Assembly: GCA_028712225.1 (NCBI GenBank) | Contig: JAQTQN010000003.1 | Span: 1-59,415, forward strand | Length of the DNA stretch: 59,415 nt | Source of the DNA: Methylobacter sp. | GTDB taxonomy: Bacteria > Pseudomonadota > Gammaproteobacteria > Methylococcales > Methylomonadaceae | Reading direction: 5' to 3' | Shown here: positions 45,348 through 53,327 of the stretch, one piece after another | Layout of the letters: each line of letters opens with the position of its first letter | Position numbering within the stretch: position 1 is the first letter of the stretch | Made by a program: the position numbers and the translations under genes | Notes under the pieces: model-generated | What the model was told of the DNA's origin: nothing | The model's input: only the letters and a program-made list of their open reading frames with translations | The model's database searches: none

Positions 45348-47186
45348 ATGACAACCCCAAAACACGTCGATAGACGTCAGTTTTTGCAATATTCCCTGTT
45401 CGGTGCCACGCTTGCTGCCTTTCCGGGTGTGCTGCTGGCCGAATCCAGCCAAATTAAAACCAGTCCAACACCAGGATTTAATGCCGATGTCGAGCTTGAG
45501 TTTACCGCTCAAGACGCGTTCATCTCCATCTTCGACCAAGGCAAAAAAACCAAAGTACAAAAGTATTTCGCCAAACTGTTAAAAGGCCCTAAAGATACCT
45601 TGACCCAATTGCACGACACACATCTGGGGCCGATTGTGCATTTTGTCAAAGGCCAAAAGGTCAGAGTTTATTTTAACAATGAGCTGACCGAGCCCCATAT
45701 TATCCATTGGCATGGCCTGCATGTACCGCAAAGCAGCGACGGGCATCCTATGTACACCGTTGAACCGGGCGAAAAATTCGTTTACGAGTTTGAAGTGCTT
45801 AATCGTGCCGGTACCAGTTTTTATCATTCTCACGCCCACCATTTAACAGCAGAGCAAGTTTATAGAGGCTTGGCGGGCTTGATTACTGTATCCGACGATG
45901 ATGAAAAAGCCTTGGATTTACCTCGCGGTGAATACGATGTGCCGTTCGCCATTCAAGACCGGACTTTTGACGACAATAACCAGCTGCAATATTTGCACGG
46001 CATGATGGGCAAAATGATGGGTTTTTTGGGCGATACCATTTTGGTGAACGGTAAAAAAGATGCCGAATTTGCAGTAAAAACTCGGGCATATCGGTTCCGT
46101 GCATTGAACGGCTCCAGTTCCAGAATTTACAAATTAGGTTGGGAAGACGGTACGCCATTAACCGCCATCGGCACCGATGCCTGCTTATTGGAAAAACCGG
46201 AAACACGGCCTTACATCATGCTGGCCCCCGGTGAACGAGTCGATTTGTGGCTGGATTTTACCGGCCGCGAAGCGGGATCAAAACTGGTTATGTTCAGCTT
46301 GCCGCATTCCGGCACCATGCCTGCTATGTACGAGAAAATGCACAAGGGCGGCAAACATTCCGAAGCTGGAGGCGAACAACATCGCGGCATGGGCATGATG
46401 GGCGGCATGCAACATGGTGGCGATAACAAAACTGAAGCAGGAGATCATCAAGGTATGGGCATGGGAGGTATGCACGGCGGCGGAATGGGCATGATGAATG
46501 GTCTGGCCCAAGGTGCCAAGTTTGTGATTGCTACTTTTAAGATCACTGAAAAAGTGTCGGATTCGCCTAAGCTGCCGGAAAAATTAGTCACTTTTCAACG
46601 TTTGACTGCCGCTGATACCGACAATGCCGGTCAACCGATTCCCATTGCTATTTCTGAAGGCCCCATGGCAATGCGCTTGAATACTAAGCCATTTTCGATG
46701 GACGAAGTGATGGACATTGAAAAAGTGAAGTTGGGATCGATTAAAAAAATCAAAATTTTCCATGCACACGGCGGAGAACAAAAAATGGAGCACGGCGATA
46801 AAGCCGAGAGCAAATCAGGCGGCACGGGAGAAATGAGCGGCATGCAGCATGGCGGCGATAAAAAAACCGAGGCGTCAGGGCAAGCCGGAGGAATGATGGG
46901 CGGCATGGGTGGCGGTATGATGATGAGCATGGCTCATCCGATACATTTACATGGTCAGCAATACCAGATTCTATCCAGAAAAATCTCCAGCATGGGGTCG
47001 CCGGGATACGAAACCGTTAAAGACGGTTTTATCGACAGCGGCTGGAAAGATACCGTGTTGGTAATGCCTGGAGAAGAAGTTGAAATCGTTAAACCGTTTC
47101 AAGATTACAAGGGCTTGTTTCTTTACCACTGCCATAATCTCGAACACGAAGGTTTGGACATGATGCGGCAGTTTTATATCAGCTAA
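45348..47186 (+). CDS. Multicopper oxidase (CopA-like) with Tat-like signal and His/Met-rich insertions
   Basis: RRQFLQYSLFG; HWHGLH, FYHSHAHH, HPIHLHGQQY, FLYHCHNLEHEGLDMM copper motifs; MHGGGMGMM-type runs. Confidence 0.93.
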   Translation: MTTPKHVDRRQFLQYSLFGATLAAFPGVLLAESSQIKTSPTPGFNADVELEFTAQDAFISIFDQGKKTKVQKYFAKLLKGPKDTLTQLHDTHLGPIVHFVKGQKVRVYFNNELTEPHIIHWHGLHVPQSSDGHPMYTVEPGEKFVYEFEVLNRAGTSFYHSHAHHLTAEQVYRGLAGLITVSDDDEKALDLPRGEYDVPFAIQDRTFDDNNQLQYLHGMMGKMMGFLGDTILVNGKKDAEFAVKTRAYRFRALNGSSSRIYKLGWEDGTPLTAIGTDACLLEKPETRPYIMLAPGERVDLWLDFTGREAGSKLVMFSLPHSGTMPAMYEKMHKGGKHSEAGGEQHRGMGMMGGMQHGGDNKTEAGDHQGMGMGGMHGGGMGMMNGLAQGAKFVIATFKITEKVSDSPKLPEKLVTFQRLTAADTDNAGQPIPIAISEGPMAMRLNTKPFSMDEVMDIEKVKLGSIKKIKIFHAHGGEQKMEHGDKAESKSGGTGEMSGMQHGGDKKTEASGQAGGMMGGMGGGMMMSMAHPIHLHGQQYQILSRKISSMGSPGYETVKDGFIDSGWKDTVLVMPGEEVEIVKPFQDYKGLFLYHCHNLEHEGLDMMRQFYIS

Positions 47187-48649: not shown

Positions 48650-50731
48650 TTAGGCCTGCAATTTAGAAATGTCGGCGCAAGTTAAAAACTGGTCCGACAA
48701 GAAATTAAGCAAGGCCAACCGATTGGCGCGTAATTCAGCGTCATCAGTCATCACCATGACATTATCAAAAAACGCATCGACATCGTTACGTAACGTAGCC
48801 AATCTATTGAGCGTTGCTTGATAGTCGCGTTCTGCCAATAACGGCTGAATGTCTTTCGCGGCGAGTTGTGCAGCCGCTAACAGCGCTAACTCTTGCGGTT
48901 CCACCAATCGATCAATTAAGCCGCCGATGTTTGCCGCCGCAGGTGTGTCAGATTTTTTCAGGATATTGCGAATACGCTTGTTGGCGGCCGCCAGACTGTC
49001 TGCTTCAGGCAGTTGCCTGAAGTCTTTAACCGCTTGTAGCCGTTGTATAAAGTCCAAAGGTTGGGTTGGATTAACTGTGAGCACGGCATCAAACTCATCA
49101 GTGCTGTAACCCTGATCCAGACAGTAACCTTTCAGACGATCGAAAATAAAATCGGTGACAGAGTTACGAGTGGCTTCAATATCAAACTCATGAGTAAACA
49201 ACGACAGGGCAACATCAATGCTTTCGGGTAAATCGAGCACCAAGTTGTTTTCAATAACGGTACGCAACACACCCAGCGCAGCCCGGCGCAATGCATAAGG
49301 GTCTTTATCGCCGGTCGGGATCAAGCCGGCGCTGAAAATGCCGGTTAAGGTGTCTATTTTTTCGGCAATGGCAAGCACGACGCCGATCGCGCTAGTGGCG
49401 ACAGGACTGCCGGATTGTTTAGGGAAATATTGCTCTTCAATTGCCCAAGCGACTTCGACCGGCTCGCCATCGGCCAGCGCGTAATAACGGCCCATTAGAC
49501 CTTGCAGATTGCCGAACTCACCGACCATTTCCGTCATCAAATCGGTTTTGGCCAGCAGTGCTGCGCGCTTGGACAGGTCGACATTAAAATTGAGCTGCTT
49601 GGCAATGCTTTCTGCAAGTTTGATAACGCGCTGGGTTTTGTCGCTAATGGTGCCCAGTTTTTCCTGAAAAACAATTGTAGAGAGGCTGTCAACGCGGTCT
49701 GCCAGAGATTTCTTTCTATCCTGTTTCCAGAAAAATTCTGCATCGGAAAGCCGAGGAGTCACCACGCGCTCATTACCGAGTTGAATGGATTCAGGATGGC
49801 TGCTTTCGATGTTGCTGAAGGTTATGAAGTGCGCCAACAAATCCCCTTTTGCATTTTTAACCGGAAAATATTTCTGGTTGGTTTGCATGGTGGTAATCAG
49901 CACTTCGGCAGGCAACTCAAGAAAACGCACATCAAAACCGCCGGTAATCGGCATCGGCCATTCGTTTAAGGCGGCAATTTCTTCCAGCAAATCTTCTTCG
50001 ATATGTGCCAAGCCGCCCACCGCCGAGGCTGCTTGATTGGCCGCATCACGAATCAACGTAAGGCGTTGCTCAAAATCGGCAATGACTTTGCCTTGCGTAT
50101 ACAGAATGTCTGCGTAATTTTGCGGCTGGGAAATCGTTATCGCTTGCGGCGCATGAAAACGATGTCCATGGGTAAGCGTGCCGGTTTTCAGGCCTAAAAT
50201 TTCCGTGTCAATCACCTCATTGCCATAAAGCAATACCGCCCAATGTACCGGCCGAACAAATTCGGTGGTGTTATTGCCCCAGCGCATCCTTTTAGCGATC
50301 GGTAAATCGGCAATGCTTTGACGAATAATCTCCGGGAGCAACTGCTCGGTGGCTTGGCCGTTTACCTGTTGGGTAAAGCTAAGCCATTCGCCCTTGTCGG
50401 TTTTTAAGCGCTCCAACTGCTCGAAACTGGTGTTGCAACTGGTGGCAAAACCTAATGCCGCTTTGCTTGGACTGCCGTCCGGGGCAAAGGCAGCCTGCAG
50501 TGCAGGACCGCGCTTTTCTACCGTTTTATCAGGCTGGGCGGCAGACAAGTTTTCAATCAACACCGCCAAACGGCGAGGTGTGGCGTATGCCTTACTTGTA
50601 GTGAAAGTGAGCTCCGCGGCGTTTAAGCCCTGAACGATATTGTTCAGTAAGGCATTGCTTAACTTCAGCAGGTTTTTTGGCGGCAGTTCTTCCGAGCCTA
50701 GCTCGAAAAGTAGATGTTTTTTATCTGACAC
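48650..50731 (-). CDS. glyS: Glycyl-tRNA synthetase beta subunit
   Basis: 'LLFELGSEELPPKNL', 'KRMRWGNNTTEFVRPVHWAVLLYG', 'DKDPYALRRAALGVLR'. Confidence 0.97.
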   Translation of the reverse strand: MSDKKHLLFELGSEELPPKNLLKLSNALLNNIVQGLNAAELTFTTSKAYATPRRLAVLIENLSAAQPDKTVEKRGPALQAAFAPDGSPSKAALGFATSCNTSFEQLERLKTDKGEWLSFTQQVNGQATEQLLPEIIRQSIADLPIAKRMRWGNNTTEFVRPVHWAVLLYGNEVIDTEILGLKTGTLTHGHRFHAPQAITISQPQNYADILYTQGKVIADFEQRLTLIRDAANQAASAVGGLAHIEEDLLEEIAALNEWPMPITGGFDVRFLELPAEVLITTMQTNQKYFPVKNAKGDLLAHFITFSNIESSHPESIQLGNERVVTPRLSDAEFFWKQDRKKSLADRVDSLSTIVFQEKLGTISDKTQRVIKLAESIAKQLNFNVDLSKRAALLAKTDLMTEMVGEFGNLQGLMGRYYALADGEPVEVAWAIEEQYFPKQSGSPVATSAIGVVLAIAEKIDTLTGIFSAGLIPTGDKDPYALRRAALGVLRTVIENNLVLDLPESIDVALSLFTHEFDIEATRNSVTDFIFDRLKGYCLDQGYSTDEFDAVLTVNPTQPLDFIQRLQAVKDFRQLPEADSLAAANKRIRNILKKSDTPAAANIGGLIDRLVEPQELALLAAAQLAAKDIQPLLAERDYQATLNRLATLRNDVDAFFDNVMVMTDDAELRANRLALLNFLSDQFLTCADISKLQA

Positions 50732-50758
50732 AGGGGCGACCTTTGTTAATAGTGATTG

Positions 50759-51334
50759 TCACAGATTTTGTAACGTTGTGCTGTCGGCGTTATAGGGGTT
50801 GGCTTTTAAATACTCTATCCAATTAGCCAAGAGATTTATACCTATTGCATTGTTCATTTTTAAATCACGAAACAAGATTTTAAATCGGGGATCTTTTTTA
50901 CTGAACTCACTTTTTGATTCATCTATTAACCCCTTTAACGTAGTCGGCAAATTATATCTAACGTGATCTAAGGTAATACCAACTTGCTGGGCCTCATTGA
51001 GAATCCATTGTTCAATGGGCGGATGAAATATTAAAAAATGATTTTTTTGTGGATGCTTATATAGCTTTAAATGTTGTTTTTCAGCAAGTAATGCAAATTC
51101 AGAAGTGCGAGATAATGGCCTTTTATCGCTATCCACAATACCTACTGCGAAATCATCTTTCAATTTGCCCAGCATTTCGTCAACCACTTTATTGCAGCTA
51201 CGCTGGTGATTATAACCGCGTGCGCTACCAATTCTTTCAGGAGGAACAATCGTTTCAACCAAATTTGTATCGAGAAAGCATTCCGGCATAACGCATAAAT
51301 TTATATTAGATTTCATCCGTGAATAACTCAGCAT
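50759..51334 (-). CDS. Small protein paired with the AAA ATPase, possible TOPRIM-like
   Basis: 'MPECFLDTNLVETI' and 'FAVGIVDSDKRPL' could be the E and DxD motifs of a TOPRIM fold; overlaps the ATPase gene. Start may be 51316 (MKSNIN). Confidence 0.65.
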   Translation of the reverse strand: MLSYSRMKSNINLCVMPECFLDTNLVETIVPPERIGSARGYNHQRSCNKVVDEMLGKLKDDFAVGIVDSDKRPLSRTSEFALLAEKQHLKLYKHPQKNHFLIFHPPIEQWILNEAQQVGITLDHVRYNLPTTLKGLIDESKSEFSKKDPRFKILFRDLKMNNAIGINLLANWIEYLKANPYNADSTTLQNL

Positions 51335-52376
51335 TAAAAAACAGGTCTAATCCATATTCGTAAACATCATTTAATTCAGCATCAGTCAGTCTTTTAATAA
51401 CTGTTTGTCCATCTTTAAAATCTGCCATATAAATTGCCAAATCATCACGGTCTTTTTCTAAAAATGTATCGAGAATATAAGGGCTGTGCGTAGCAATAAA
51501 AAACTGATTGCTTTCTGAGTCAATAATTTCTCTGGCAATATGAGTGATATAAGGTGGGAAGCAGTGAGCTTCGGGTTCTTCAAAAAGTAAGATTGAATTT
51601 TTGTTAGAAGTAATTGCCGTTTTAAAAAATATTACCCTTTGCAACGTATCGGCAATAGAGCTGTAGGGCAATGAAACCATTGTTTTATTGTCTTTCAATG
51701 CTTTCATTATCCTTACTGTTTGATTTGTCTTATCAAGCAGAAGCTGTAATCCGTATCCAGTAAATAATCCAGATAATTCATCTTTTAGCTTACCTTTCTG
51801 GATAATATCGAAAAAATTAACTCCGCTAGGCGGTATCAGTCCAACGGTTTTTACAAGGTCTTGCGCTTTCGAAATAAGAGTATGAGGAAATTTATAATAT
51901 TTAACTTTTGGAGATGGGTAATCATGCTTTTTATAAGAACCCACGAGACTGAGTTTATTGTCTGCAATCAAGGTGTGGCTTTCTGAGGTTTTAAGGTCAA
52001 CAGTTGGCAAGTTTCCATATAATTCATAAGCAACGTCTTGGTTTTCTAAATTTATTTCAAATCCAACGAAACCTGATTCGGGTAAATATTCAACGCTACA
52101 AAAACTGCCATCATCAGCCTTAATATTAATTTTTTCTTCTATATTCCCATCAAAAAATAATTCGGCAATATTTTCTAATCTAACGAATTGCGTTATTTTT
52201 TTGCTCTTGTTGTATTTAATATAAGGCAAGCTAAACAACCCAATAGCCTCCAAAATATTAGATTTTCCAACATTCGGTTTACCAATCAGCAAGTTAATAC
52301 GCCTGCAGTCGCTTAAAGTGACATCTTTAAGCGACTTAAAGTTGCGGATCTGTACCGAGTTGAAAAACGTTGTCAT
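51306..52376 (-). CDS. AAA family ATPase (AAA15/OLD-like, AbiEii/AriA-type)
   Basis: 'VQIRNFKSLKDVTLSDCRRINLLIGKPNVGKSNILEAIGLF', 'NSILLFEEPEAHCFPPYI', 'QFFIATHSPYILDTFL'. Confidence 0.88.
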   Translation of the reverse strand: MTTFFNSVQIRNFKSLKDVTLSDCRRINLLIGKPNVGKSNILEAIGLFSLPYIKYNKSKKITQFVRLENIAELFFDGNIEEKINIKADDGSFCSVEYLPESGFVGFEINLENQDVAYELYGNLPTVDLKTSESHTLIADNKLSLVGSYKKHDYPSPKVKYYKFPHTLISKAQDLVKTVGLIPPSGVNFFDIIQKGKLKDELSGLFTGYGLQLLLDKTNQTVRIMKALKDNKTMVSLPYSSIADTLQRVIFFKTAITSNKNSILLFEEPEAHCFPPYITHIAREIIDSESNQFFIATHSPYILDTFLEKDRDDLAIYMADFKDGQTVIKRLTDAELNDVYEYGLDLFFNAELFTDEI

Positions 52377-52379
52377 AAA

Positions 52380-53327
52380 TTACTCGGCTGGAGTGTTACA
52401 CATCGGAAAACCCAATGATTCACGCCGCGCGTAATAAGCTTCAGCGACGGCTCGGGACAAGGTTCTGACTCTTAAAATATAGCGTTGGCGCTCGGTGACC
52501 GAAATGGCGTGGCGGGCATCCAGCAAGTTGAAGGTATGCGAGGCTTTCAGCACCATTTCATAGGCAGGCAACGGCAGATTAACGGCAATCAGCTTTTGGC
52601 ATTCTTGCTCGTAGGTATCAAAGCAGCCGAATAGAAAATCGACATTGGCATGTTCAAAATTGAACGCCGACATTTCCACTTCGTTCTGATGAAACACGTC
52701 GCCGTAAGTGACGGTGCCGTGCGGGGTTTTGGTCCAGACCAAGTCATAAACGCTCTTAACACCCTGCAAATACATGGCAATGCGTTCCAGCCCGTAAGTG
52801 ATTTCACCGGTCACCGGTCGACATTCCAGGCCGCCGACTTGTTGGAAATAAGTAAACTGGGTGACTTCCATGCCGTTTAGCCAGACTTCCCAGCCCAAGC
52901 CCCAGGCGCCCAATGTTGGCGATTCCCAATTGTCTTCGACAAAGCGAATATCGTGCTCGAGCAAGTCAAAACCCAAATGGCGCAACGACCCCAAATATAA
53001 CTCTTGGATGTTGTTAGGCGAGGGCTTCAGCATTACCTGAAATTGGTAATAATGCTGCAAGCGGTTGGGGTTTTCGCCGAAACGGCCGTCTGTCGGCCGC
53101 CGTGACGGCTGCACATAAGCGGTATTCCAGGGCTCAGGACCGATGGCGCGTAAGAAGGTGGCAGGGTGAAAAGTCCCCGCACCGACTTCCTGATCTAACG
53201 GCTGTAACAAAATACAGCCTTGAGCTGACCAGTATTCCTGCAAGGCAAGAATAAGTCCCTGAAACGTTGATATATCGTGGGTTTTATTCGACACGGCGGC
53301 TACAAGAGGCAATAAAAAGGGGGCCAA
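52380..53327 (-). CDS. glyQ: Glycyl-tRNA synthetase alpha subunit
   Basis: '[77 protein letters not shown]'. Confidence 0.97.

Follow-up and report, generated by a model that had tools for sequence, protein, structure and literature searches.

Why do an ATPase gene and a small partner gene lie inside the glyQ-glyS operon, between the genes for the alpha and beta subunits of glycyl-tRNA synthetase? The question is raised by a stretch of 59,415 nt from Methylobacter sp. (contig JAQTQN010000003.1, positions 1 to 59,415; hereafter the window), for which an earlier note, made from the letters alone, had suggested a two-gene defence module riding on an essential transcript.

An AT-rich gene pair inside the glyQ-glyS operon

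The four genes of the locus are encoded on the reverse strand: glyQ (52380..53327; Pfam 1.9e-150), a 356-aa OLD/AAA15-like ATPase (51306..52376; Pfam AAA_15 6.8e-19, AAA_21 2.8e-14), a 191-aa partner with TOPRIM-like motifs (50759..51334), and glyS, which starts with GTG (48650..50731; Pfam 3e-203). We refer to this ATPase and partner as type A. At the left junction, 3 nt (TAATTTATG; 52377..52379, reverse strand) separate the glyQ stop from the ATPase ATG, a spacing consistent with translational coupling of the two genes. At the right junction (50732..50758, reverse strand), 27 nt carry a new ribosome-binding site (AAAGGTCGCCCCT) for the glyS gene with its GTG start. The ATPase and partner genes share 29 nt in the annotation, or 11 nt if the partner starts at Met7, the better conserved of the two starts. 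The ORFs lie exactly where the earlier note had placed them, and its impression that the pair was AT-richer than its flanks was borne out: the ATPase and the partner had GC contents of 34.0% and 36.3%, the two lowest values when the 38 window ORFs that reach 190 aa are compared (mean 46.7, sd 3.7), versus 51.4% for glyQ and 49.6% for glyS. Scanning for promoters and terminators returned counts at chance level and hence no clear internal promoter or terminator. The search for flanking direct repeats and terminal inverted repeats found only weak internal ones, so that there was no sign of transposition.

The ATPase presented a Walker A motif (GKPNVGKS, residues 32-39), a Walker B motif with the catalytic acidic residue (LLFEEPEAH, 263-271) and an H-switch (THSPY, 296-300), the combination that defines OLD/AAA15 ABC-type ATPases. 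G32..GKS39, LFEEPEAH (264-271) and T296-Y300 were invariant in 22 homologues. Pairwise identity reached 79-93% over the N-terminal motifs and 78-91% around Walker B, and fell to 7-29% over residues 81-180. This stretch roughly delimits a hypervariable middle, and such variability might be expected if the region were a diversifying sensor. Among PADLOC models, AbiLi matched the ATPase best (2e-20), followed by AriA (2e-18), but such matches are generic for OLD/AAA15 ATPases; some OLD ATPases, such as Cran1, are non-defensive (PMC12796447).

Regarding the partner, E18, D22, D68, D70, E108 and W110 were invariant in 24 homologues (E18xxxD22, D68xD70 and E108xW110), and the order of these acidic motifs corresponds to that of the TOPRIM E, DxD and second acidic motif. 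The E and DxD motifs guessed beforehand fall on four of these residues, E18, D22, D68 and D70. The alignment retained 23 invariant columns across the 24 homologues and dN/dS ranged between 0.05 and 0.27 in the 14 closest pairs, which argues against a chance pair of ORFs; the partner is under purifying selection. It gave no match in Pfam, NCBIfam, PADLOC, PHROGs or PDB, and a single family member showed one weak DUF4276 match (0.059). An AF2 model built from 8 close sequences only was of low confidence (pLDDT 48) and yielded no meaningful Foldseek match. The proposal of an ATPase with a TOPRIM-type partner thus held for the ATPase, which Pfam places in OLD/AAA15, and for the motifs of the partner, and found no Pfam, PDB or profile match for a TOPRIM fold; the assignment of the type A partner to TOPRIM is inferred at the level of motifs.

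A recurrent slot with varied cargo

In order to place the pair in its family, we surveyed glyQ-glyS spacing in 201 Methylomonadaceae genomes. The type A partner was present in 28 of them, belonging to 10 out of 29 genera and including the named relatives Methylobacter (M. tundripaludum SV96) and Methylovulum (M. miyakonense HT12); about 85% of the family lacks it, and even a single genus contains genomes with and without it, so that it does not behave as a family-wide housekeeping gene. A profile of the 24 partners produced 0 matches when run against 273 genomes of the class from outside the family, and tblastn against plasmids and phages returned no type A match. At every type A locus read, the ATPase gene adjoined the partner and glyS followed the partner immediately, except in one case where a UPF0149 gene intervened. 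In some genomes of genus g9, glyQ is located elsewhere and the pair remains with glyS alone (L143). One further g9 locus (L142:6431-8198, genome G101), which adjoins hisD/hisG and lies apart from the full glyS, consists of a broken ATPase, a partner that is intact and a glyS fragment from the 5′ end; it is a displaced remnant of the slot.

The distance between glyQ and glyS, worked out by hand from the coordinates listed, was 6-31 nt in most of the genomes listed. In contrast to these empty junctions, about 43 genomes from 12 genera held an insert of 0.7-3.5 kb. The inserts comprised at least four unrelated kinds of ATPase and TOPRIM-like pair (types A to D) as well as single genes, and close relatives often differed in the kind they carried. 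Type B consists of an ATPase starting with MLKRLY(V/I)HNYK and a partner of 171-196 aa that has the motifs LCED, IDxD and RNIESWF. Profile searches detected it in 16 genomes of 8 genera, decayed copies included, and all type B matches whose context was read precede glyS; comparison of the A and B partner profiles with hhalign revealed no homology. Type C (L105, L112), which is PARIS-like, combines an ATPase with a 263-302 aa partner that matches PADLOC AriAB (6e-6 and 3e-4), and type D (L117) combines an ATPase with a DUF4276/RloB-like protein (DUF4276 7e-7, RloB 3e-4). Types B and A also occurred in tandem (L122, L124, L129, L130 and L141). Within the genus of the window, the three genomes with a readable junction carried type A (the window), type B (G003) and an empty site (G002). 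A survey of 140 genomes of the class revealed no comparable inserts; same-contig gaps longer than 300 nt, identified by length alone, occurred only in G236 (~690 nt) and G332 (~600 nt). In the open-access literature we found no relevant report of a defence insertion between glyQ and glyS. The slot is a recurrent, family-specific hotspot with varied cargo rather than the site of a one-off insertion.

Other genes were also observed in the slot. Bro-N genes (phage antirepressor-like, 257 aa) come first, ahead of a B-type or A-type module (L114:962-1735 in G221 and L127:1732-2505 in G169). A UPF0149/SEC-C protein is found alone or directly behind module A (L113:141-815 in G076 and L144:2483-3157 in G097), the L113 copy matching the PADLOC candidate PDC-S12 (1e-33); the L144 slot also holds a PD-(D/E)XK-like protein. 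At a further locus (L107:152-1960, G155), the slot encodes a coiled-coil protein of 602 aa, which contains repeats of LGRxExKxDxLxDK-like segments and showed no family match except a weak one to V-SNARE_C.

Turnover of the cassettes by recombination

The junctions differed between empty and occupied alleles. In empty alleles, glyQ typically ends in LGFPM(C/L)xGQGA, the glyS ribosome-binding site lies within its last codons and glyS starts with ATG. Occupied alleles have a glyQ tail that diverges right after LGFPMC, as in the window; the first cargo gene begins a few to some tens of nt past glyQ, and the glyS GTG is preceded by a new ribosome-binding site. Among all distinct loci compared, glyS started with GTG in 44 out of 44 occupied loci (one with an alternative ATG) and with ATG in 38 out of 38 empty ones. 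Two scar alleles (G193 and G156) also have the GTG; their gaps measure 128-134 nt, and a B-partner tail was detectable in G193, with a similar stretch visible by eye in G156. That the GTG is found in occupied and scar alleles and the ATG in empty ones suggests that the right end is shared whichever cargo is present. The GTG/ATG split is independent of cargo, and a shared founder or a tuning of the subunit balance may be its cause.

Remains of former occupants were also found behind present ones: a B-partner tail behind the coiled-coil gene in L107 and an A-partner tail behind type B in L106. Sequence comparisons between pairs of genomes revealed mosaics. G106 and G133 are 96% identical over the glyS body, versus 58-71% in the partner DNA, and their identity drops locally to 82-92% over the first ~300 nt of glyS; conversely, the partner tract of G106 and G220 is 87-97% identical, mostly above a background of 81-91%. 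Flanks of ~94% identity surround non-homologous inserts in G120 (type B) and G185 (type A), an example of non-homologous cassettes at one core locus of related genomes, the pattern of a defence replacement hotspot. Across 12 genomes, partner and glyS-body distances were uncorrelated (Mantel r 0.16, p 0.12), and the nearest neighbours by partner and by glyS agreed in 2 and disagreed in 10 of the 12. Such discordance, together with the mosaic tracts, would be expected if cassettes were exchanged by homologous recombination, and scars, tandems and mosaics indicate that recombination of this type, acting via the core genes on either side, drives turnover. No integrase or terminal repeats were seen at the slot loci.

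These data bear on the possibility that the cassette was inserted once in an ancestor and then inherited vertically, with many losses and little horizontal exchange. The GTG start of glyS in every occupied allele does suggest a common founder. Nevertheless, unrelated cargo within near-identical flanks, the mosaic tracts and a partner phylogeny that is uncorrelated with that of glyS are difficult to reconcile with vertical descent, and empty alleles keep an intact canonical junction. We consider this explanation highly improbable.

Probable role of the modules and comparison with known systems

Altogether, the glyQ-glyS junction is in our view probably a replacement slot, specific to this family, in which AbiL/PARIS-like abortive-infection modules are expressed from an essential operon. 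Small promoterless cassettes, mostly two-gene ATPase and TOPRIM-like modules, occupy an integrase-free slot and are gained, lost and swapped by homologous recombination via core flanks and conserved cassette parts; they would be expressed, presumably by read-through, from the essential glyQS transcript. We propose, in analogy to PARIS and AbiL, that the ATPase of the type A module acts as a sensor and keeps the small partner inactive, and that the hypervariable middle of this ATPase recognises a phage product. Infection would release the partner, probably a metal-dependent TOPRIM nuclease, which would cut RNA (perhaps tRNA) or DNA, stopping both cell and phage. The defence module proposed from the letters alone fits the patchy distribution, the AT-rich composition and the defence-like ATPase and TOPRIM pairs that share the slot; that the window pair itself protects against phages we infer by analogy, as is the case for the release mechanism and the substrate of the partner.

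The pair most likely works like the PARIS and AbiLii/RloB systems. In PARIS, AriB is sequestered by the ATPase AriA until a phage trigger sets it free to cleave tRNA (PMC12409363); AbiLii and RloB are OLD-TOPRIM effectors encoded next to AAA ATPases (PMC10440598). As in PARIS, the ABC-ATPase and the small TOPRIM-type effector are separate genes, and type C from the same slot matches AriAB, although the type A partner matches neither AriB nor AriAB in PADLOC. Similarly, AbiL and RloB/DUF4276-type pairs (HEC-01) consist of two genes, AbiLi is the best model for the window ATPase and the type D partner matches DUF4276 and RloB. In contrast, the type A partner has no RloB match in PADLOC or Pfam, and the window pair occupies a chromosomal slot of an essential operon rather than a plasmid or an island. 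An OLD-type ATPase is also shared with class 1 OLD, Gabija and retron Eco8. Unlike Gabija, the 356-aa ATPase is not fused to TOPRIM and its neighbours are glyQ and glyS, with no GajB UvrD helicase; nor does a reverse transcriptase adjoin the pair, as it would in retron Eco8, whose effector model scored 58.5 bits against a cut-off of 250. Regarding genomic organisation, the slot resembles the replacement defence islands and core defence hotspots (cDHS) of Vibrio, E. coli and Pseudomonas (PMC10250203), since short non-homologous defence cassettes are swapped between core flanks with no integrase seen. It differs from them in being tightly packed between two subunit genes of one essential enzyme, in the change of the downstream start from ATG to GTG and in its restriction, in this survey, to Methylomonadaceae.

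Alternatively, the pair could be an accessory or regulator of glycyl-tRNA synthetase, sensing for instance uncharged tRNA-Gly, and be kept at glyQS by function. Gene spacing suggests co-translation, and types A and B were found solely at this slot in the 201 genomes. This exclusive location on the glyS side is explained more simply by spread through flank homologous recombination than by functional coupling to the enzyme. Moreover, a regulator of the synthetase would not be expected to be missing from most of the family, to vary within one genus or to have a hypervariable middle, nor to stay with glyS alone where glyQ and glyS are apart; its place is also taken by non-homologous pairs or by Bro-N, UPF0149 and coiled-coil genes. 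We thus judge this reading unlikely. The same holds for a related scenario in which modules A and B are adapted to the glyQS transcript and guard glycyl-tRNA synthetase: a phage that causes translation to fail or charged tRNA-Gly to run out would thereby shift the ATPase:effector balance and trigger the effector, and the ATG-to-GTG change would tune the subunits, which seems to us a doubtful proposition. It is also improbable that the pair is a toxin-antitoxin system or a selfish addiction cassette, maintained through its position in an essential operon and active against phages only incidentally. The two overlapping genes would suit such a cassette, and pairs of an AAA antitoxin and a TOPRIM_OLD toxin are known in toxin-antitoxin networks (PMC10440598), yet frequent clean loss or replacement, as seen in empty alleles and scars, is atypical of strong addiction, and the sensor-like hypervariable region points to changing ligands.

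As a replacement slot for abortive-infection modules, the glyQ-glyS junction would constitute an unusual kind of defence hotspot, in which promoterless two-gene cassettes without visible integrases lie between the subunit genes of an essential synthetase. It is a compact, searchable source of new ATPase and TOPRIM-type modules, the A and B partners having no family models. Different cassettes within near-identical flanks provide a natural experiment, and the hypervariable region of the ATPase predicts the site of phage recognition. Few studies have addressed immunity in methanotrophs, hosts that are important in methane cycling. Elsewhere in the window, at 45348-47186, we observed a 612-aa protein that resembles multicopper oxidases and carries long insertions rich in His and Met (GMGGMHGGGMGMM, GGMMGGMGGGMMM).
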